From Allotamlana fucoidanivorans (GTDB taxonomy: Bacteria; Bacteroidota; Bacteroidia; Flavobacteriales; Flavobacteriaceae), in NCBI RefSeq assembly GCF_006265225.1, contig NZ_VDCS01000007.1, positions 1 to 64,000 on the forward strand: a DNA stretch of 64,000 nt. The letters are read 5' to 3'. This document shows, in pieces, positions 1-12,783 of this stretch (its first letter is position 1; the number at the start of each line of letters is the position of its first letter). The notes under the pieces were generated by a model. The model had not been told where the DNA came from. It ran no database searches and saw only the letters and a list, made by a program, of their open reading frames with translations. Position numbers and translations under genes: made by a program.

Positions 1-139
1 TGCAATCAATCTATACAACCAAATTAGATTACATGTATCTTTAGACTATAAAACACCAAATATGGTATATTTAAAAACAGCGTAAATCAATTTTTAACCT
101 GTAGCCATATTTCAGGACTAGACATATTAAAACAAACCT

Positions 140-1039
140 ATGAACAAGAAAATACCAATCTTAATATTACTGATAATCAGCTTCCAGTCAACATTTGCAA
201 ATGATTTAGATAGCGGAATAATTGAACTTGGAAAAATTTATCGGGATTTCGTCTTTAGAAATAACCCAACGGATTTGACATTTAAAAAACTCGCTGAAAT
301 AAATTCGTCCGAACTTTTGATAACAAAAAATTTTGTCAAAGAATGTATAAGTCCAAACAATGAATTGACTTCAGAAAAATTCCTGAAATTACCAGACGAA
401 CAAACACTTTTAAATTTGTATTTGATTATGAAAGTCAATGAAAACGTCAGAGAAAAAGACCCGAAAGACAATACGGAACTATTAAAGGAATGGCGAGAAA
501 AAAATGTACAACGCTATGAACTGATTGAAAACTATTATAGTATGGTTTTTAGCGGAATTGGTAACAAGAATCAACCCTTTGACCTATCGAATGTAGATTT
601 TGTAATTGACAACTACAATCTAAAAGACGAAACAGAAAAGGGGATTTTCTTCTTGACCGCAATGAATCTTTGCTATTATCAGATTTGGGGTTATATGAAT
701 GTTGTAAAACCACCTAATTACAAAAAAGCATTATCAAGCATCGAAAAATATCCAAAATTCAATGGACAAGAATATTACAAGTACAAATATTTCGGTTTTC
801 CCGATTTTGAGATGCAAATTGAAAAGGACAAAGGAAAAGAGAGTTACAAGCATTATTTCATAAATCGTTTTTATAACACGTTGATTTATCATCATCAATG
901 TTTAAATCAGAAAAGAAGAACAAGAAAAGATGCTGAAAACCTTGCTTTGAGTTCAATTCTAAAAGAAAAGAATTATTACGAATACTCGAAAAACCAAGAC
1001 TATTTGAATGGACTTTTCCGAACAATGAAAATGGACTAA
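140..1039 (+). CDS. Secreted hypothetical protein, first cassette-like gene
   Basis: I do not recognise this 299-residue protein. It opens with a Lys pair and a hydrophobic stretch ending near residue 20 (FQSTFA), a plausible Sec signal peptide, so the product is probably periplasmic or surface-attached. The rest is highly charged and rich in Lys, Glu, Asn and Tyr, with no motif I can name. It is followed after about 12 bases by the first long palindromic unit (1051-1186), and the next gene starts just beyond that unit. It is therefore the first of a row of short same-strand genes each tailed by such a unit. No clear promoter is visible in the 139 bases before it. The single-ORF length and secretion signal make it a real gene; function unknown. 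Confidence 0.65.
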   Translation: MNKKIPILILLIISFQSTFANDLDSGIIELGKIYRDFVFRNNPTDLTFKKLAEINSSELLITKNFVKECISPNNELTSEKFLKLPDEQTLLNLYLIMKVNENVREKDPKDNTELLKEWREKNVQRYELIENYYSMVFSGIGNKNQPFDLSNVDFVIDNYNLKDETEKGIFFLTAMNLCYYQIWGYMNVVKPPNYKKALSSIEKYPKFNGQEYYKYKYFGFPDFEMQIEKDKGKESYKHYFINRFYNTLIYHHQCLNQKRRTRKDAENLALSSILKEKNYYEYSKNQDYLNGLFRTMKMD

Positions 1040-1050
1040 AAATACGCTCT

Positions 1051-1186
1051 ACAACAATGGCTATAAACAATTGCTATTACAGGCTTATTCTAAAAATTCC
1101 TGCGGAATTTTCAGCTTTTGGTGTACTTGCAAAAGTCCGTGCTAAACCACGCAACTGTTCATAGCCGAGACCGTTTTGTGCAACAG
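1051..1186. repeat. Cassette-type palindromic unit 1
   Basis: A long imperfect inverted repeat fills the gap between two genes. Outer arms are 1059-1074 (GGCTATAAACAATTGC) and 1151-1166 (GCAACTGTTCATAGCC): 14 of 16 positions pair, and both mismatches are A-C on this strand, hence G-T wobbles on the minus strand. In the middle is a perfect hairpin, AAAATTCC-TGC-GGAATTTT, at 1093-1111. The unit ends in a CCGTTTTGTGCAAC box at about 1170-1184, 15 bases before the next start codon. Unit 2 has the same plan. I know similar elements as common intergenic repeats of flavobacterial genomes, but not an agreed name or function. Confidence 0.75.
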
Positions 1187-1199
1187 TTAAAAAAAAATC

Positions 1200-1736
1200 G
1201 TGAAAACATTAATATTTATAATTTTGATTTCAATTTCGTCTTGTAACGGAACGAAAAAAACGACTGAAATTGAGTCAATCGAAAACACTCAAATCGAATT
1301 TAAATTAGCGGAATCGGATTTTTTTATTCTGCCTTTTAATAAAGATTGGCATTGGATTTTTAAAGATGTAAAACCGACTGAACTTACTCAATCGGAATTA
1401 TTTGAAATCGAAAATATTTTAAAAATTGCGGTTGAAGAGAATAATGAAAGGCAAAAAATAAATTTAGAAAAGCACAACGAAGAATATCCAAAAAGTAAAT
1501 GGAAGGAAACTGGTTTTGAATTAAAACTAAAAGGAAAGAAAAGACAATATGTTCCAGTAATTAATGAAAAAGGAGAAAAAGAAGTTTGGATTAACTTTTT
1601 CTGTAACGATTGGGAAAGTGATGATTGGAAAAAAGATTTAATGCTTGTTCACGATGGAGGAAATTGTTATTTCAATCTAAAAGTGAATTTGACAAACAAA
1701 ACATATTCGGAATTAGGAATTAATGGATATGCTTAA
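1200..1736 (+). CDS. Hypothetical lipoprotein, second cassette-like gene
   Basis: A 178-residue protein with a GTG start 15 bases after palindromic unit 1. The N-terminus is a short hydrophobic segment followed by ISSCNG, a lipobox-like site with Cys at about residue 15, so it is probably a lipoprotein. The body is rich in Lys, Glu and Trp (for example NDWESDDWKKD) and ends YSELGINGYA. I recognise no family; the fold cannot be read from motifs. It sits alone between two palindromic units and on the same strand as its neighbours, as expected for a one-gene cassette. Function unknown. Confidence 0.65.
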   Translation: MKTLIFIILISISSCNGTKKTTEIESIENTQIEFKLAESDFFILPFNKDWHWIFKDVKPTELTQSELFEIENILKIAVEENNERQKINLEKHNEEYPKSKWKETGFELKLKGKKRQYVPVINEKGEKEVWINFFCNDWESDDWKKDLMLVHDGGNCYFNLKVNLTNKTYSELGINGYA

Positions 1737-1743
1737 CAATAAA

Positions 1744-1885
1744 ACCGTTGCACAACACCGTATATAATTTATTGCTAGTTCTAGCATACTTACGAAAATC
1801 CTCGCGGATTTTCTATTCGGTTTGTATTTGCTAAATTAGTTGCTTAAAACACGCAACAAACCATATACAAACACGTTGGCAAACA
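1744..1885. repeat. Cassette-type palindromic unit 2
   Basis: Same architecture as the unit at 1051. Outer arms are 1760-1775 (GTATATAATTTATTGC) and 1853-1868 (GCAACAAACCATATAC): 13 of 16 positions pair, and all three mismatches are A-C on the plus strand, which become G-T wobbles on the minus strand. A perfect inner hairpin, GAAAATCC-TCGC-GGATTTTC, lies at about 1793-1812, and a small GCTAG/CTAGC hairpin at about 1773-1785. The outermost boxes are GTTGCACAAC (1748-1757) and GTTGGCAAAC (1875-1884). The next gene starts 10 bases downstream. Confidence 0.75.
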
Positions 1886-1894
1886 TTTTGAAAA

Positions 1895-2470
1895 ATGAAC
1901 ACAGAATTAAAAAATGAATATCACGAAAGAAATATTCGTTGGACTCAAACAACGATTAATCAACTTTCATTTTATAACAACTTACTTTTAAGTTTAGGTA
2001 TAGGATTTTTAACCTTTAGTTTTAACGCTGACTTATTTAAAAACCTAAAATTCTCATTTAATGAAATTGATTGGTCAATATCTTTTCTCGCTCTTTCACT
2101 TGTTAGTATAGTTCTTTCAATTGTTATAGGACTAATCACATCAATAGCAAGATTAAAAGATTTTCGCATTACAAGAAGCATAAACCAAATTAGACAAAGG
2201 ACTTATGAGCATTCGGAAAAACTATTAGATGAAAGTACACCTGAAGAATATAAAAGAATAAAAAGAACATTTATAATTTTTAAAAAACAACCTCAAATAA
2301 GCATTGAAGAATGTAAAGCCTACAATCAAACGATTGATTTTGATTTGAGATTTAGGGAATTGAGAAATTTAGCTCACAATCTCGGATTAAATTCTTGGAA
2401 TTATACAAAGAAACAAAGCATTCTTTTTGGTTTTTCTGTTGCTTTTTATTTATGCTCAATCCTAATCTAA
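1895..2470 (+). CDS. Hypothetical three-helix membrane protein
   Basis: A 191-residue protein with predicted membrane segments at about residues 28-46, 61-86 and 173-191 (the last at the very C-terminus), and a charged Arg/Lys-rich stretch of some 80 residues between helices two and three. A two-helix hairpin near the N-terminus plus a long soluble region is a layout shared with several small membrane effector families, but I see no diagnostic motif and make no functional call. It begins 10 bases after palindromic unit 2 and is followed after 3 bases by another membrane protein gene, so the two are probably one transcriptional and functional unit. Confidence 0.6.
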   Translation: MNTELKNEYHERNIRWTQTTINQLSFYNNLLLSLGIGFLTFSFNADLFKNLKFSFNEIDWSISFLALSLVSIVLSIVIGLITSIARLKDFRITRSINQIRQRTYEHSEKLLDESTPEEYKRIKRTFIIFKKQPQISIEECKAYNQTIDFDLRFRELRNLAHNLGLNSWNYTKKQSILFGFSVAFYLCSILI

Positions 2471-2473
2471 AAT

Positions 2474-2845
2474 ATGGCAAAAACAATTCAATTAAAGCTT
2501 AATAAGAGACTTCTGACAAACCTTCTAAAATCGATAGTTATATCATTAGTTGTTATTTTCATTTTGGAACACTTCGGCAGAATTGAATACAAAAAACCCA
2601 GAAGCGACAAATATTATGCGATTTACCATACATTTTTTGATGGTTCCGTGTATTCCGATACTAATTTTTTGACTAAAAACAATTATCCAAAATTTGGAGA
2701 AGTTGAGACCTATACCGAACTTTTACCTTATCGAATTTTAGCTACAATTTATTCAGAAGAGGACTTTGTTGCTTTTTTAATCTTAACTGGAATAATTTGG
2801 TTAATTTTTATTTTTAAACAATATGTTAGAATTAAAATTGAGTAA
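2474..2845 (+). CDS. Hypothetical two-helix membrane protein
   Basis: A 123-residue protein with membrane segments at about residues 16-32 and 98-118 and a Tyr-rich extracytoplasmic-sized loop between them. It starts 3 bases after the stop of the preceding membrane protein gene, indicating a two-gene operon. It is followed by a truncated palindromic unit at 2851-2889. No family recognised. The tight pairing with another small membrane protein suggests they act together. Confidence 0.55.
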   Translation: MAKTIQLKLNKRLLTNLLKSIVISLVVIFILEHFGRIEYKKPRSDKYYAIYHTFFDGSVYSDTNFLTKNNYPKFGEVETYTELLPYRILATIYSEEDFVAFLILTGIIWLIFIFKQYVRIKIE

Positions 2846-2850
2846 TAAAA

Positions 2851-2889
2851 ACTACCGCCAACAACGGTAGCCGTTGCGCAAGCCCATAA
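2851..2889. repeat. Truncated cassette-type palindromic unit 3
   Basis: Directly after the stop codon of the preceding gene comes CTACCG-CCAACAA-CGGTAG followed by CCGTTGCGCAAG. The GTTGNGCAA-type box matches the ends of units 1 and 2, but the long arm, the inner hairpin and the closing arm are missing. The unit therefore looks cut off at about 2889, where the sequence changes to a terminator and then the transposase remnant. Confidence 0.5.
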
Positions 2890-2910
2890 TTTTATAAAAA
2901 CGTGATACAA

Positions 2911-2941
2911 AAACGTCCTTTTCAAGGGCGTTTGTTGTTTT
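2911..2941 (+). terminator. Terminator after the membrane protein pair
   Basis: AAACGtCCTT and AAGGgCGTTT form a hairpin at 2911-2933 with a T-rich tail (GTTGTTTTTGG). It would end transcripts of the plus-strand genes before they enter the minus-strand module. Confidence 0.55.
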
Positions 2942-2951
2942 TGGTTGTTAT

Positions 2952-3383
2952 TTACCATCTAAAATCAAGATGCTTACTAGGGCTAAAAACAAGGCCCATC
3001 ATGCCTTTATACATGCAAAAATGAGTTTGCAGACTTGCCGCCCCGCTTTTACTGTGTTTTTCTATGAATTTCAAGTACTTTTTAAGGTTGTAGGCTATGG
3101 CCGAGAGCTGCATACACTTATTAGCTTGCTTAATGCCAATGGTATTGACTTTCCTAAGTCCCATAAACTGGGTTAAGGTTCCAAATACGGGCTCTACTGT
3201 GCTTTGTCGCTTGGCTTTCATATAGCGCCCCTGTAATGGTTGATTTGTAGAAAAATCAACAACCTTCCCTTTTAAAACTATCAAAGATAAATTATTATAT
3301 GGTGGTGTGTAATGACCATACCCTAATCCATAAATAATTTTTTGATTTTGAGACCCAGAAAGCCTGTTTTTAAAGAATGACAT
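2952..3383 (-). pseudogene. Transposase C-terminal remnant fused to foreign 5' sequence
   Basis: Residues from about 50 to the end (GRYMKAKRQSTVEPVFGTL, then FMGLRKVNTIG and NKCMQLSAIAYNLKKYL) match the C-terminal end of DDE transposases of the IS1182/IS4-like type, covering only 2952 to about 3240. The catalytic core is absent. The first 50 residues are unrelated; they contain LKGKVVDFSTNQPLQG, which resembles the opening strand of a CarboxypepD_reg domain. The open frame is thus a junction of two broken genes. It lies between the cassette-like genes and the replication module and marks past rearrangement there. Confidence 0.7.
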
Positions 3384-3442: not shown

Positions 3443-4288
3443 CTAAATACTATTAACCACCTTCGGCAAATAATCATCATTAAGTGTAAATGAAAACTCA
3501 TCAAAAGGATAACCTCTAGTATAAGATGGTAAAACCCTCACAATATTGTGTTCACTATCTCTATCAATAAAAGCAACTGTCTCTGCTTTTTTCATAATTG
3601 CACTTCCTAAATGACCGGTGGGCTTTTCTGTCCCGGGATTCTTGTGTAATATCGTACATAAGTGAGATTTACTAATTGAAGTCCATTTAAGCATTCCTTG
3701 AACAATTTTATTTGAATATTCCAAATCATTAACAGATTCTAAAATATCTGCCGCTCCATCAATAGTTATTAAACCAATATTATCACGATAAGAGCTTTCC
3801 ATCATTATCCACTCAATAAATTGAAATCGAATTTTTGGGTCTTCTTCTCGTGTTGAAAAAGCTTTAAAATATTCATAATTATTCCCTACCATTTCACATG
3901 CTCTTTTTGCAACACGTTGAGTATGCCATAAAGATTGCTCTGTATCTACATCAATAACATATTTTTCTTTAGTATCATGTCCTCGCATGTCAGGAAAATA
4001 ATAATTAGACTTACCACCAATGTAAGATGCGATTAAAGCTGATTTTAGAAATGTTTTCATTGACTTCGAAGCTCCAACTAAACAACTAAAATTACCATAC
4101 GTTCCAAACGGAGTCGGGTATATTCTATCCTTATAACTATGGGTTCCAATACTAAGTGCTATAGGCTCTGGTAATAGAGTTTGATCCAATCTAACAATAC
4201 ATTTATCATGTATTTCTATTAACTCTTGAGGAGTTAATTCTTCGGATACAGTAGGGCTAATTTTTATTTTCTCTATGTCTGGCATCAT
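3443..4288 (-). CDS. RepA/DnaB-like AAA ATPase of the mobile element
   Basis: A 281-residue RecA-fold ATPase. A Walker A-like loop is at about residues 72-80 (GASKSMKTF), a strand ending in Asp at 111-115 (VIDVD), and a Walker B-like LITIDG at 173-178. The later LHKNPG and KPTGHLGSAIMKKAET segments are what I know from RepA-type helicases and ATPases encoded next to primases or initiators on Bacteroidota mobile elements. It likely drives replication or maintenance of the excised element. Its start overlaps the end of the upstream gene by 32 bases, indicating translational coupling. It is the last gene of the minus-strand module. Confidence 0.75.
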   Translation of the reverse strand: MMPDIEKIKISPTVSEELTPQELIEIHDKCIVRLDQTLLPEPIALSIGTHSYKDRIYPTPFGTYGNFSCLVGASKSMKTFLKSALIASYIGGKSNYYFPDMRGHDTKEKYVIDVDTEQSLWHTQRVAKRACEMVGNNYEYFKAFSTREEDPKIRFQFIEWIMMESSYRDNIGLITIDGAADILESVNDLEYSNKIVQGMLKWTSISKSHLCTILHKNPGTEKPTGHLGSAIMKKAETVAFIDRDSEHNIVRVLPSYTRGYPFDEFSFTLNDDYLPKVVNSI

Positions 4289-4799
4289 AATACGTATTTA
4301 AAAAACTATTTATTTGACTTATCAATAAATCTTTAACAAGCGAAACATCCCATGTGTTTAAAAACAAAGCGTCTTTATTTTCTTCTCTTATTATGCTTTG
4401 CATTAACTTATCTGTTTCCTTTTCCTTTTGACACTTAGCCTTAGTTGCTGGGTGTTCTTTTGTTGAAATTCCATTTTTTATGAACAAATTTTCAACCTCC
4501 AAACTATTCAATTCATCTGTAAACTTTTGTATGTGAACAGCTAAAGGCATTTCAAGTAATTTGTGTAATTCTTTAATAGGTAATTCATCATAAATATTTG
4601 ACCTATATTTTCTATTCAAATAAGAATAATGGTGTATGTATAATTTTGCAAGTAACTCGTTGGCATTTATTTGATTTTTATGCTTTTGATTAACAAATTC
4701 AATAATTGTATTTATAGCTTGCTTATCAGTTTCATTTGCCTTCCAATGTTTATTATTTACTCTAAATTTTATTCTGTTAATAGCATTTATTATTTTCAT
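4257..4799 (-). CDS. Hypothetical protein of the replication module
   Basis: A 180-residue, Lys/Asn-rich, largely helical protein with no motif I recognise. It is wedged between the winged-helix gene (4-base overlap, ATGA type) and the RepA-like ATPase gene (32-base overlap). The overlaps show that the three are translated as a set, so a role in loading or assisting the ATPase is a reasonable inference but not shown by sequence. Confidence 0.6.
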   Translation of the reverse strand: MKIINAINRIKFRVNNKHWKANETDKQAINTIIEFVNQKHKNQINANELLAKLYIHHYSYLNRKYRSNIYDELPIKELHKLLEMPLAVHIQKFTDELNSLEVENLFIKNGISTKEHPATKAKCQKEKETDKLMQSIIREENKDALFLNTWDVSLVKDLLISQINSFLNTYYDARHRENKN

Positions 4800-5482
4800 A
4801 TCCAGTCTTTGTGTTTTTGTTTTTTGTATCCATTAAGCTTCCCATTATTTTCAATCTTATTTAGCCAATTTGTAAAATGTCTTTTAAATAAAGTTAAGTT
4901 ATCTTCATACTCCTTATCTCCATAAGCCAATACAGAAAGTTTAAATTCATTTATAAGAGCTGAAAGGCATCCTTGTTTAAAATCAAATTTTTTATAAATC
5001 ACATCTACCCATGATTTTTCATTTTTTGATTGTAACTCCTCTAAAATATTTTTAAAGACAATATTAATATCACTTTTAATTTCAGCTTTATTATTGTTAT
5101 TGTTTTGTTTATCTTTTGTTTTATTTATCTCATCCTTAACCTTATCCCTAACCTCGGCAGAAACCTCTTCCAATACCTTTGGAAATTTAGACAAGGTTTT
5201 TATTTTATATTTAATATTAGGACTGCCGTTTTGAGTGAAATATTCTATTAGTCCAGCTTCTCTTAATTTTCTTAGAGACAACTTCATTGTTTTAAAAGAC
5301 ACCTGAACTGATGCTTGTACCTTCTTATTGTTATGAAAAAATGATTCTTTCCATCCACATGAGTTGTTTACTTCTAATAAATAGAAATAAATAGCAATAT
5401 CATTAGACTTAAAATTTTGAGTATTCGTAAACCTCCAAAAATTAACAACTTGTTCTAAATAGTTTATCCTTTGTCTATTCAT
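4796..5482 (-). CDS. Winged-helix replication/regulatory protein
   Basis: The N-terminal 90 residues look like a winged-helix domain of the kind found in replication initiators and DnaD-like proteins of Bacteroidota elements: NDIAIYFYLLEVNN, then a recognition-helix region VSFKTMKLSLRKLREAGLI and a wing ending IKYKI. The C-terminal half is Lys/Asn-rich and ends KQKHKDWI. I chose the ATG at 5482 (MNRQRINYLEQ), since homologous proteins begin this way; an in-frame ATG at 5521 adds 13 residues. The stop overlaps the next gene start by 4 bases. Likely role: origin binding and recruitment of the RepA-like ATPase. Confidence 0.65.
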   Translation of the reverse strand: MNRQRINYLEQVVNFWRFTNTQNFKSNDIAIYFYLLEVNNSCGWKESFFHNNKKVQASVQVSFKTMKLSLRKLREAGLIEYFTQNGSPNIKYKIKTLSKFPKVLEEVSAEVRDKVKDEINKTKDKQNNNNNKAEIKSDINIVFKNILEELQSKNEKSWVDVIYKKFDFKQGCLSALINEFKLSVLAYGDKEYEDNLTLFKRHFTNWLNKIENNGKLNGYKKQKHKDWI

Positions 5483-5540
5483 GCGTTGATTGTTTTTTGG
5501 TAACAACACAACCCAAAACATAACTTTTGCAGCTTTTTAT

Positions 5541-5657
5541 ATGAAGAGAGAAATCCTTATATTGCATCTGTTTATCGCTTTTGGTGCTATAAATTATAAC
5601 CCCCAGCACATGTGGTTATGTACTGGGGGTTTTCTTTTATTAACGTTTATATTTTAA
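5541..5657 (+). CDS. Possible 38-residue hydrophobic peptide
   Basis: An ATG-started frame opposite the module encodes a peptide with two hydrophobic stretches (ILILHLFIAFGA and GGFLLLTFIF) around a polar turn. Its 3' half spans the strong hairpin at 5598-5631 and its end overlaps the 3' end of the HTH gene on the other strand. Size and hydropathy resemble type I toxins, and a TAACTTTTGC element upstream (5521-5530) is close to but not a TAnnTTTG box. It may equally be chance. Confidence 0.2.
   Translation: MKREILILHLFIAFGAINYNPQHMWLCTGGFLLLTFIF
5598..5636. terminator. Strong hairpin between HTH and winged-helix genes
   Basis: AACCCCCAGcACAT and ATGTaCTGGGGGTT pair around a GTGGTT loop at 5598-5631. 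The T-rich tail (TTTTCTTTTATT) lies on the plus-strand side, which suits termination of a plus-strand transcript; on the minus strand it would fold in the RNA between the HTH gene and the winged-helix gene and could attenuate the latter. Confidence 0.6.
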
Positions 5658-5927
5658 GGACTTTACTTCTTTAAGAGCGTTCTCAAGGTCAGAACGTTTA
5701 ATAAGAAGTTTTCTGCCAACTTTTGAAGCTGGATAGACACCTTTTTTAATTTGCGCATAAATAGTTTGAACCGAACAGTTTTGTTCTTCAGCAGCCTGTA
5801 CTGGAGTTACATTTTCACTAAACTTATTATCAATTAATAATTGAACATCCTCAGATAATTTATGTACTTTATTAAATAGTTCTGTGAATTTCTTTTTATC
5901 AACATTTTGCAGAATTATACCTTCCAT
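5640..5927 (-). CDS. Excisionase-family helix-turn-helix protein
   Basis: A 95-residue protein whose residues 41-85 (TPVQAAEEQNCSVQTIYAQI, then KKGVYPASKVGRKLLIKRSD) match the MerR-like HTH_17/excisionase DNA-binding domain: helix, turn, recognition helix, wing with the GRK-L-I pattern, and a final LENAL helix. In this setting, close to a tyrosine integrase, it is likely the recombination directionality factor or a regulator of the rep genes. It lies 114 bases upstream of the winged-helix gene, separated by the strong hairpin. Confidence 0.75.
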   Translation of the reverse strand: MEGIILQNVDKKKFTELFNKVHKLSEDVQLLIDNKFSENVTPVQAAEEQNCSVQTIYAQIKKGVYPASKVGRKLLIKRSDLENALKEVKSLKYKR

Positions 5928-6010
5928 GAAACACGTTTTAAATTAAATATGAATCAAAAATATAAGTAACTATTGATAAATAATTAGACGGCTTTGGACC
6001 GTCCAAAAGT

Positions 6011-7099
6011 CTAAACTATTGACCTATTATATGGTATAAAATTAGTTAAATGTAAATACTCAGACTGTCTAGGAGATTCCTTTAAGCTAAAATAATTCTT
6101 TCTTGATACTGACGAATTAATAAAAGTATTATTTAATGCCTCGGTTATTTTCTCCCCATCATGGCATTTTTGAATATACCCTTTATTATATAATTGCATT
6201 CCTATTGAACAAATAAAAGATTGACCACCTCGAATTTGATACTTCGTCGGTATAACAACTTCATAAGAGTCTTCCGTTTTTTTTATTATATTTCTATCAA
6301 TGAGATCTTTAATTACATTTTTGTAAACTTCTTTCTGACCAGCTTCCTCAAATAAGATTTTCAAGTTTGCTTTTTTTACGTTTTTTGCATCTAATTGATT
6401 ACTGTTTTCCAACTCTTTTATTTTAACATCTATAGATTTTCCACCAGTATTTTCTAGAATATCAATTTTGGCTAATTCATCGTTTAGATACTTGGAAACC
6501 GACTTAAATATAAAATAAGCTGACCATCGGTTCAAATTCAGGGCCAACACAGGGTATTTAAAACCTAACCCTTTAAACTCATCCATTTGAGCTAAATAAT
6601 AATCTTCATTAAGCAAATGATTTAAAACTAACTCAGGAATTGTAGCATCCAATTCGCATATTCTTTCCTTCCATTTAGACCATCCAATTAATTCTGAATC
6701 GATTTCGTAATAATAATACTCATTATCAATATTTAGTTTTTTAAATAACTCTTTGTGCTTTTTCTTTATAGCTCTTCTTTTTTTTGGTTTATCTATATGT
6801 CTATTAATACTAAGTTCTATTTCCTTTTGTAAGTCTATTATTATATCTACAGCGCTATCAGCCACAAAACATTCCAACTCATTGTAAATTTCTTCTAAAA
6901 AAGGTCTGTTGAGAAAATATGCTATTCCATCCAAACGCAACATATCTTCTAGAACCATAGAATTACCATAACTGGCTAATTCAAAATCATCATCTGGTGA
7001 GTATACTCCAATATTAACTAAGTAATCTATTAACTCTCTATTTACTCCTTTAAATTCAAAATCTTTTAAAATTCCTTTAAACTTAACTTTTTGTTCCAT
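6011..7099 (-). CDS. Hypothetical protein next to the integrase
   Basis: A 362-residue protein that I do not recognise. It is soluble, acidic-basic mixed, with a Lys/Arg cluster (KPKKRRAIKKKHKE at about residues 104-117) and no signal peptide or membrane segment. It starts 5 bases after the integrase stop, so both come from one transcript. Proteins of this size and place are common in Bacteroidota integrative elements, without known function. Confidence 0.65.
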   Translation of the reverse strand: MEQKVKFKGILKDFEFKGVNRELIDYLVNIGVYSPDDDFELASYGNSMVLEDMLRLDGIAYFLNRPFLEEIYNELECFVADSAVDIIIDLQKEIELSINRHIDKPKKRRAIKKKHKELFKKLNIDNEYYYYEIDSELIGWSKWKERICELDATIPELVLNHLLNEDYYLAQMDEFKGLGFKYPVLALNLNRWSAYFIFKSVSKYLNDELAKIDILENTGGKSIDVKIKELENSNQLDAKNVKKANLKILFEEAGQKEVYKNVIKDLIDRNIIKKTEDSYEVVIPTKYQIRGGQSFICSIGMQLYNKGYIQKCHDGEKITEALNNTFINSSVSRKNYFSLKESPRQSEYLHLTNFIPYNRSIV

Positions 7100-7104
7100 G
7101 GATT

Positions 7105-8364
7105 TTATGCTTTTTTCAATTTAGGTAATTCCATACTACCAAATGCCAAATGTATTGCATCTACTTTGGCTATATTATCAACTTTATAGTAGGTATTAAA
7201 GGTTTTAAAGTCCCGGTGACCTGTCATTTCCATAATGGTTTTATCTGCAATACCCTTTTTTTTCATTATGGATACAAAGGTCCTACGAGCCGAGTGGGTT
7301 GAAATACGCTTATTGAAGGGTTTGTGCTTTATTTCTTGATGCTTGTTTTTTGTTCGGCTGTATTCTACTTCGTGAGTAAAATCAGCTTCCTCGAATACAT
7401 CTTTTACATATTCATTTTGTTTCTGATTGCTTAATAGAGGTAATTTATAACTGTACTTTTTAAGTAAATAATTTGATATTTCAAAAAGAGGTATTTTTCT
7501 AGGTTCTTTGGAAACATCTTTTTCCTCATGGATAATTAAAATATTGTCAATTACGCATCTCTCATTTACTAACTTGAGCTCTCCATACCTCAATCCCGTT
7601 AAACATTGAAACACGAAAACATCTCTAACCTGTTCAAGTTTTTTTGTCTTTGGCTTAAACTCAAAAATAGCTTTAACTTGATCAATAGTCAATGCCACCT
7701 CCTTTGTTATTACCCTTTCAGGTTTAACAAAGCTGGTAAATGTGTCATTATATGTGAACTTTTCTTTTAACGCCCAAAACATAAATGTTTTAAATAAACC
7801 TATATTCCTGGAGAATGTATTTGTATTATGATCTAAGGTATTGTAACAATAGTTAATGAACTCCGTATAAAACTTATTGTTTATTTTGCTAAAAGTAAGT
7901 TTATACTTTTTCTTTTCCTCAAATTGAATAAGATGGTTTTTAATATTGTTATAACGCTTTACTGTTGAAGGTTTCCATTCATTTCGCTTTTGCTTTTCTT
8001 CCATAAATTTATCATATGCATCATAAAACAAATTCTTTTTAGATGACACTTTTTTAAATTCAATATCAAACGAGTTTTTTAAATTTTTGGTGGTGAATTC
8101 CTCCCCTGTTTTTGTATGCCAAGCTTCTATCTCCTCAAATTTGTTTGTATATCTATTTAATTGAGTTACTATCGCTGAAGCATTTGCGTCTCTTTGACTT
8201 CCTTTTATTTTGGGCCTGTTTTCTTTAAAACTCCAATGCTTAGGCTCAATTTTTTCACCAGTAGAATATTTGAATTGCTTATTTTCGTGTTTAAAATAGC
8301 ATGAAAATATAATTAAGGTTTTCTTTTTTGATTTTGGCTCTTTTAAAAAAAAAGTATGATCCAT
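7105..8364 (-). CDS. Tyrosine site-specific integrase
   Basis: A 419-residue phage-type integrase with all three expected parts: an N-terminal arm-binding domain (about 1-100), a SAM-like core-binding domain (about 105-210) and a C-terminal catalytic domain. Catalytic residues are visible: Arg259 in TGLRYGE, His357 and Arg360 in HSARR, His383 in TGHRD and nucleophile Tyr392 in FNTYY. It should integrate and excise the element at a tRNA/tmRNA 3' end. The att-like fragment lies about 150 bases upstream of its start and three 12-bp iterons lie between. The frame is intact, so the element may still move. Confidence 0.93.
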   Translation of the reverse strand: MDHTFFLKEPKSKKKTLIIFSCYFKHENKQFKYSTGEKIEPKHWSFKENRPKIKGSQRDANASAIVTQLNRYTNKFEEIEAWHTKTGEEFTTKNLKNSFDIEFKKVSSKKNLFYDAYDKFMEEKQKRNEWKPSTVKRYNNIKNHLIQFEEKKKYKLTFSKINNKFYTEFINYCYNTLDHNTNTFSRNIGLFKTFMFWALKEKFTYNDTFTSFVKPERVITKEVALTIDQVKAIFEFKPKTKKLEQVRDVFVFQCLTGLRYGELKLVNERCVIDNILIIHEEKDVSKEPRKIPLFEISNYLLKKYSYKLPLLSNQKQNEYVKDVFEEADFTHEVEYSRTKNKHQEIKHKPFNKRISTHSARRTFVSIMKKKGIADKTIMEMTGHRDFKTFNTYYKVDNIAKVDAIHLAFGSMELPKLKKA

Positions 8365-12607: not shown

Positions 12608-12638
12608 TTGTGAAATCATATTTTCATTTCTATATTTG
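12608..12638 (+). promoter_or_regulatory. trp operon promoter
   Basis: TTG at 12608-12610, 20 bases, then TATATTTG at 12631-12638. This matches the Bacteroidota housekeeping promoter (TTG, N19-20, TAnnTTTG). Transcription would start at about 12644, some 14 bases before the leader peptide start. Confidence 0.75.
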
Positions 12639-12657
12639 ACACAGAAAAATTCAAAAT

Positions 12658-12705
12658 ATGAACGCTATTTTAAATTATACTTGGTGGTGGTGCTTTCGAA
12701 ACTAA
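12658..12705 (+). CDS. trpL: trp operon leader peptide
   Basis: A 15-codon frame encodes MNAILNYTWWWCFRN with three consecutive TGG codons at 12682-12690. It lies between the trp promoter and an attenuator hairpin, 88 bases upstream of trpE. Translation of the Trp codons should sense charged tRNA-Trp: a ribosome waiting there leaves 12709-12715 free, while one at the stop codon covers it. This corresponds to the class of leader I know from Rfam as the Bacteroid-trp motif. Confidence 0.88.
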   Translation: MNAILNYTWWWCFRN

Positions 12706-12708
12706 AAT

Positions 12709-12783
12709 TCGTGAAGTAAAACCCTAGTATATTTAAAAATTAAAATATCAAAAAGGCTTGTCATTCACGACAAGCCTTTTTTT
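12709..12783 (+). promoter_or_regulatory. trp attenuator (antiterminator and terminator)
   Basis: The terminator is AAAAAGGCTTGTC-ATTCAC-GACAAGCCTTTTTTT at 12750-12783. A rival pairing exists: TCGTGAA (12709-12715) is exactly complementary to TTCACGA (12764-12770), which includes the loop and the start of the terminator's 3' strand. Formation of that pairing would break the terminator. Segment 12709-12715 begins 4 bases after the leader stop codon, so ribosome position decides which structure forms. Confidence 0.85.

Follow-up and report, generated by a model that had tools for sequence, protein, structure and literature searches.

The 4.0-Mb genome of Allotamlana fucoidanivorans (150 contigs) contains palindromic units that very likely, at a probability of about 0.9, serve as recombination sites for the gene cassettes of an integron-like array in the chromosome. 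This reading is inferred from sequence alone, and recombination itself has not been observed. The system appears to work like an integron in every respect that sequence can show, an inference of the same kind, and it falls outside the IntI integrons as defined, because the criteria for the integrase and for the core site are not met. The window referred to throughout is the whole 64,000-nt stretch that was analysed, positions 1 to 64,000 of contig C118, and its first 2,889 nt carry one end of the array.

The preliminary description had placed two palindromic units at 1051-1186 and 1744-1885 and a truncated third beyond them, each behind a plus-strand stop codon and shortly before the next start codon, in a row of short, unrecognised genes. 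All of this held. The cores of the two units lie at 1053-1175 and 1754-1877, the units and genes are placed as described, and a Pfam search of the four window cassette genes returned nothing above cut-off. The truncated unit is real: its R'' arm and minimal hairpin occupy 2857-2876, and a similar copy ends contig C72 (L028). The features are listed below.

1-124, plus strand: right end of an IS3-family insertion sequence, recognised by an end sequence common to L014, L028, L031 and L032.
140-1039, plus strand: cassette gene of unknown function (open reading frame, 299 aa).
1053-1175, minus strand (the folding strand): unit 1, an attC-like site from the AAC of R'' to the GTT of R' (R1 model, 95.5 bits).
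1173-1182, plus strand: R' arm of unit 1, which is the start of the next cassette, GTTTTGTGCAAC (read from the sequence).
1200-1736, plus strand: cassette gene of unknown function (open reading frame, 178 aa, GTG start).
1747-1756, plus strand: R'' arm of unit 2, GTTGCACAAC, which apart from a TT insertion is reverse complementary to its own cassette's start.
1754-1877, minus strand: unit 2, an attC-like site from the AAC of R'' to the GTT of R' (R1 model, 106.7 bits, E 3.4e-19).
1875-1884, plus strand: R' arm of unit 2, which is the start of the next cassette, GTTGGCAAAC (read from the sequence).
1895-2470, plus strand: cassette gene of unknown function (open reading frame, 191 aa, membrane-protein-like), first in a two-gene cassette.
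2474-2845, plus strand: second gene of the two-gene cassette, function unknown (open reading frame, 123 aa; sub-threshold Pfam match only).
2851-2889, no strand assigned: shortened third unit at the 3' end of the array, consisting of R'' arm CTACCGCCAAC plus a minimal hairpin that has lost its inner stem.
2952-3383, minus strand: remnant of a DDE transposase gene (Pfam DDE_Tnp_1_6, E 9e-9), directly after the shortened unit.
L014, L015, L031 and L032 (own genome), L251 and L146, same orientation as the unit: left ends of the IS3-family element at units.

The TT insertion lies in GTTTTGTGCAAC, relative to the arm at the other end of its cassette, and the 178-aa product of that cassette has what may be a secreted or lipoprotein-like look.

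A covariance model assigns 67 members of the genome to this hairpin family. BLAST from one unit had found 11 places and an iterated profile 61, so that single-copy BLAST understates the array. Units are found on C118 (window 1-2889), C60, C67, C71, C72 and C75-C80, on one strand per contig, with further ones on C45 and C2 and three stray copies; more than 90% of them lie within same-strand arrays. Because several of the array contigs break in repeated IS or cassette sequence beside a unit, we read C118, C60, C67, C71, C72 and C75-C80 as one array broken by the assembly, which contains most of the 67 units. Its inferred 3' end is window 1-2889, and its inferred 5' end is the recombinase gene on C60 (L012), where the outermost unit is preceded by one gene and then, on the same strand, by the gene for a 376-aa tyrosine recombinase (L012:4235-5365). 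Elsewhere in the genome, a second recombinase paralogue on C45 (L121) also heads units of its own, and C2:211736-213046 holds a group of three. Each cassette runs from one GTT to the next, usually carries one plus-strand gene and ends in a hairpin site of 120-130 nt. Most of the 47 own cassette ORFs have no Pfam match; there are single matches to acetyltransferase, thioredoxin-like, SUKH-type, peptidase and TPR proteins, and few of the cassette genes resemble known defence genes.

Insertion sequences are associated with the array at several points. The IS3-family right end (window 1-124) lies where the first visible cassette begins, the same element terminates at least four other array contigs, and L251 holds a complete copy with coding sequence for HTH_Tnp_1 and rve domains. 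Six of the seven left ends found, from three genera, are placed precisely 14 nt after a unit's GTT core and in the same orientation, and it is likely, as far as can be inferred, that this element targets units much as some ISs target attC. At the other edge of the array, comparison of L028:5720-5867 with window 2851-3383 reveals different cassettes, then the same shortened unit, then the same transposase-bearing sequence; a second element that inserts in or beside units is possible. An apparent integrated element with an arm-binding-domain tyrosine integrase (window 3443-8364) adjoins the array end. We rejected that integrase (7105-8364) as the unit recombinase, given its arm-binding domain, its weaker Xer and IntI scores and its place in a separate element.

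The end sequences of the cassettes, which the preliminary description did not cover (nor did it cover the recombinase on C60), link each unit to the next. Every unit is followed by GTT and seven freely varying bases, and the same seven, reverse-complemented, precede the AAC of the next unit. Across 46 own cassettes the ends are complementary at 6.57 of 7 positions; shuffling the partners lowers this to 2.61 (sd 0.25), and the two arms of a single site give 2.09. A second analysis gave 6.44 of 7 for the own genome and 6.13 of 7 for 157 cassettes of other genomes, against 2.61 (sd 0.12) when shuffled. The test is not circular, because the GTT was chosen by position and stem and not by the seven bases. 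The R'/R'' match within one site is 2.0-2.6 of 7 overall. We considered this chance-level value as evidence against attC and rejected it, since the match joins the two ends of one cassette, and the R arms of one site in the array derive from two different cassettes. In integron cassettes the starting core and the terminal inverse core are related in the same way. As the cassette ends are reverse complementary over 10 bases, a circularised cassette would rebuild a full R arm and hairpin. The core itself is not that of ordinary attC sites, as had been claimed: GTTRRRY is met by only 21 of 260 sites, and GTT is invariant, though GTT was used to place the site.

The units also show a consistent preference for one strand. 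The preliminary description had held that the minus strand folds better and that the stem mismatches, 2 of 16 in unit 1 and 3 of 16 in unit 2, are all A·C on the plus strand and hence G·T on the minus strand; the mismatch counts held exactly, and the folding claim held for both units and for the wider family. DNA folding gives -18.2 kcal/mol for the minus strand of unit 1 against -14.2 for the plus strand (z -2.6), and -21.0 against -16.6 for unit 2 (z -4.1). Chance does not account for this: of 252 units taken from the own genome and others, 233 have the better fold on the minus strand (mean -2.44 kcal/mol), and neighbouring gene segments, used as a control, lean the opposite way. When 88 units from this and other genomes were aligned as the minus strand by sequence alone, standard pairs filled 97.8% of cells in the 16-bp outer stem and the GTT/AAC pairs, and 13 of the 16 stem pairs changed on both sides. 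Double-change cells numbered 266, as against 67 in shuffled alignments and 37-84 with the partner slid. Two minus-strand G·T wobbles are fixed, at pair 7 (76 of 88 units) and pair 12 (86 of 88), and among plus-strand mismatches in the first 12 pairs of 260 units A·C outnumbers G·T by 558 to 3. The units were collected by similarity and a minimum stem score whose threshold treats A·C and G·T alike. This choice by stem score inflates the share of paired cells but affects neither the A·C/G·T ratio nor the cassette-end match. A one-base stem bulge occurs in a sizeable minority of units. The attC architecture test (R''/R' boxes, spacer, L stem and bottom-strand fold) is met, computationally. The earlier proposal of an integron-like row of substrates for an unknown single-strand recombinase is thus supported, with the proviso that single-strand use is inferred from strand-biased folding only.

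Movement of cassettes between genomes is evident from a comparison of 202 cassettes. An own cassette, L013:15173-15876 (array strand), shares 99.7% identity, across 704 bp that include the site, with L109:8073-8776 (array strand) in a single-contig genome of another genus (G014); the identity starts and stops at the GTT cores, and outside them falls to 56-63%. Two loci from different genera, L103 and L117, have cassettes in common at 88% and 93%, and repeated cassettes inside L109 and L117 are 96-99.8% identical and have unlike neighbours. Cassettes have been exchanged between genomes with their ends at GTT, as shown, on sequence evidence, by one near-identical case across genera and several diverged or repeated ones.

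These observations bear on one alternative, that the units are dispersed palindromes (REP/RAYT, MITE-like elements, terminators or antisense RNAs) lying between unrelated genes. In its favour, the units are palindromic, intergenic and multicopy. Against it, more than nine-tenths of them lie in same-strand arrays, each at a fixed place behind a gene; end complementarity links consecutive units across a gene; and the cassette boundaries at GTT cores in the L013/L109 comparison contradict it. An Rfam search of the window matched no family to the units, and its sole match, a Bacteroidete tryptophan peptide leader RNA (RF01692), lies elsewhere, at 12636-12762. Moreover, the units are linked to a tyrosine recombinase, unlike REP palindromes, which are moved by HUH enzymes. 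This alternative is all but excluded, and the structured antisense RNA that the preliminary description had offered as another possibility is not needed.

The link to a recombinase is close. Around 48 recombinases with the N-terminal domain described below, 252 units lie downstream on the same strand, one on the opposite strand and two upstream. The first unit is usually 0.4-2 kb from the recombinase; for five of the 48, each with more than 2.5 kb of downstream sequence, no unit was detected there. Directly behind the recombinase stop codon lies a conserved ATATAAnnAGTT followed by seven private bases, and this site is taken to behave as an attI because in 11 of 16 testable loci 6 or all 7 of the private bases agree with the first unit's R''. 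On L012 it lies at about 4090-4130, minus strand. A second, putative attI-like form, ATTGTT, is visible behind the recombinases of the L113/L116/L248 group. The preliminary description had named several checks, among them gene swapping at fixed units, a recombinase linked to the units and covariation favouring one strand. Neighbouring genes do swap as units keep their place, and a whole cassette has moved between genera; the recombinase gene stands at the head of arrays; and compensatory changes together with the fixed wobbles favour the minus strand.

A small gene with a Cys motif (CxxC...GRSDKKFCD) lies divergently beside the own recombinase gene (L012:5456-5833) and is also found upstream of the recombinases at L073, L105, L113, L116 and L121. 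Inverted repeats that are operator-like in look separate it from the recombinase.

The recombinase is not IntI. Its active-site residues (arginines, lysine, histidines and tyrosine) do not vary among 33 members; the own protein scores 193.3 bits with the IntI model TIGR02249, below the cut-off of 265, and 204.5 bits with the XerA model NF040815, below the cut-off of 220. No protein in the whole own genome passes the TIGR02249 cut-off. The I2 insertion around patch III is absent from all 33 members; profile matches to IntI break at IntI positions 180-243, where I2 sits, and some 40 residues present in 20 IntI proteins of the phylum are missing. In a maximum-likelihood tree (a quick method, with SH-aLRT support only), one branch (support 100) unites all 20 of these IntI and includes not one of the 33 recombinases; these 33 group with other proteins lacking I2 in a different branch (support 98).

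It might be argued that this is a canonical integron with drifted attC sites, moved by a true IntI encoded elsewhere. The architecture is that of the integron, and 46 of the 148 genomes sampled across the phylum, from other families and classes, do encode a true IntI above the family cut-off (loci L216-L235). That said, none was found above the cut-off in the own genome or in the sampled genomes of its own family, Flavobacteriaceae; no unit was found near the 20 true IntI genes of the phylum that served as a control; and the linked recombinase falls outside the IntI clade. We regard this explanation as very unlikely.

The AlphaFold model of the recombinase (mean pLDDT 89) has a Xer-like core and a compact N-terminal domain of about 75 extra residues, predicted to fold as two strands, a helix, two strands and a helix. 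The closest solved structures to the whole model, by Foldseek, are IntI4 bound to its site and XerA. For the N-terminal domain alone the best match is an archaeal XPB damage-recognition domain (probability 0.97, VIA Z 7.2, in the chance range), eIF1-type folds score nearly as high (6.7), and a PDB sequence search returned only chance matches. One member of the family matches Pfam HARP at E 0.0007, near noise. The domain thus has a predicted-fold likeness to the HARP domain of SMARCAL1 and the XPB damage-recognition domain, and membership is not established.

How might such a system work? The recombinase would bind the folded minus strand of a cassette site, cut near the GTT in R' and join the cut site to the attI that follows the recombinase gene, in the way that IntI joins attC to attI. 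Owing to the two fixed G·T wobbles, the hairpin is better on the minus strand, which would set the orientation of gene insertion, and the R arms, predicted to pair over 3 bp in the array and 10 bp in the free circle, should favour capture over loss. More speculatively, the N-terminal domain, for which a HARP/XPB-like fold is predicted, may do here what the I2 helix does in IntI, namely recognise the hairpin. Against the main reading, neither recombination nor a single-strand substrate nor a circle has been seen. It also counts against it that the present recombinase has no I2 helix, the element credited with the known single-strand recombination of attC (PMC7790495).

A rival mechanism follows these lines: the recombinase would use the units as ordinary double-stranded Xer-type sites, and the hairpin would be a by-product of inverted binding boxes. 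The enzyme is indeed Xer-like and without I2, and both the attI and the right half of the unit (TATAC-6 nt-GTT) look like simple double-stranded sites. This reading leaves unexplained the compensatory changes through a 16-bp stem whose arms are about 90 nt apart, the fixation of one-strand G·T wobbles at two positions, and the 10-bp complementary cassette ends of freely varying sequence, and we consider it unlikely.

The units are widely distributed. The covariance model finds them in 133 of 149 Flavobacteriaceae genera searched and in 75 of 198 Bacteroidota genomes searched, often with at least 20 units; in a control set of 10 genomes of other phyla with distant relatives of the recombinase there were none. 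Genomes with a recombinase match at E 1e-40 have units in 98 of 100 cases, those without in 35 of 49. Those unit-bearing genomes without such a match that were re-searched yielded fragments or only housekeeping Xer; the re-searched unit-free genomes yielded only housekeeping-type Xer, except for two incomplete assemblies (G062 and G089). By analogy with attC clusters that have no integrase, it is likely that arrays can outlive or lack a local recombinase. Four genomes (G071, at L251, and G019, G059 and G097) have some 20 or more units and no recombinase of this family that we could find. Recombinase relatives without a match to the N-terminal domain occur at L150 (Rufibacter), L179 (Pontibacter) and L149 (Aquiflexum), with several cassette-end pairs downstream and almost no units of the present model; these loci probably hold other site families.

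The likeness to integrons and superintegrons, such as the chromosomal integron of Vibrio cholerae, extends to the 5' tyrosine recombinase, the attI-like site, the long same-strand arrays of mostly single-gene cassettes, the hairpin behind each gene with its favoured minus strand, the complementary cassette ends and the cassette boundaries at GTT. The differences are just as clear. The present recombinase lies outside the IntI clade, lacks the I2 insertion, has the extra N-terminal domain and is encoded in the same direction as the cassettes; the core is GTT with seven private bases in place of GTTRRRY; the site length is nearly constant (120-130 nt); and strand asymmetry comes mainly from two fixed G·T wobbles, whereas strand choice at canonical attC is directed chiefly by extrahelical bases (PMC2727003). 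The best match of the catalytic part is XerA (4a8e, 5hxy), the archaeal XerC-like protein covered by NF040815 ("site-specific tyrosine recombinase/integron integrase"). XerA is not known to carry the extra N-terminal domain and serves chromosome-dimer resolution, not cassette arrays. Relatives of the present proteins may belong to the "integron-like" simple tyrosine recombinases of Smyshlyaev et al. (2021, PMC8138268), a subgroup in which an I2-type insertion is not conserved in all members; the sections of that paper bearing on I2-less members describe no cassette arrays, hairpin sites or N-terminal domain. No description of the present system was found in the open-access literature searched, which did not cover subscription papers or preprints.

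A bolder reading, which we would as readily doubt as accept, is that Bacteroidota have a second class of integron, in which single-strand cassette recombination is carried out by a different Xer-like branch without I2, a HARP-like domain reads the hairpin and G·T wobbles mark the strand. Single-strand recombination would then either have arisen separately or have been kept from before IntI. The I2 helix is regarded as the new feature by which a Xer-like enzyme became able to work on single-stranded sites (PMC7790495), and an I2-less enzyme tied to sites that look single-stranded bears on the origin of integrons.

Complete integrons are reportedly rare in Bacteroidetes; the one listed by IntegronFinder 2.0 belongs to Salinibacter (PMC9024848). 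With units present in 133 of the 149 Flavobacteriaceae genera searched, and in 75 of the 198 Bacteroidota genomes, the arrays amount to a very large stock of mobile genes without annotation. Both matters, this gene pool and the origin of integrons, can be put to the test with the covariance model and the attI motif. A large group of bacteria appears to run its own version of the integron's gene-capture machine.
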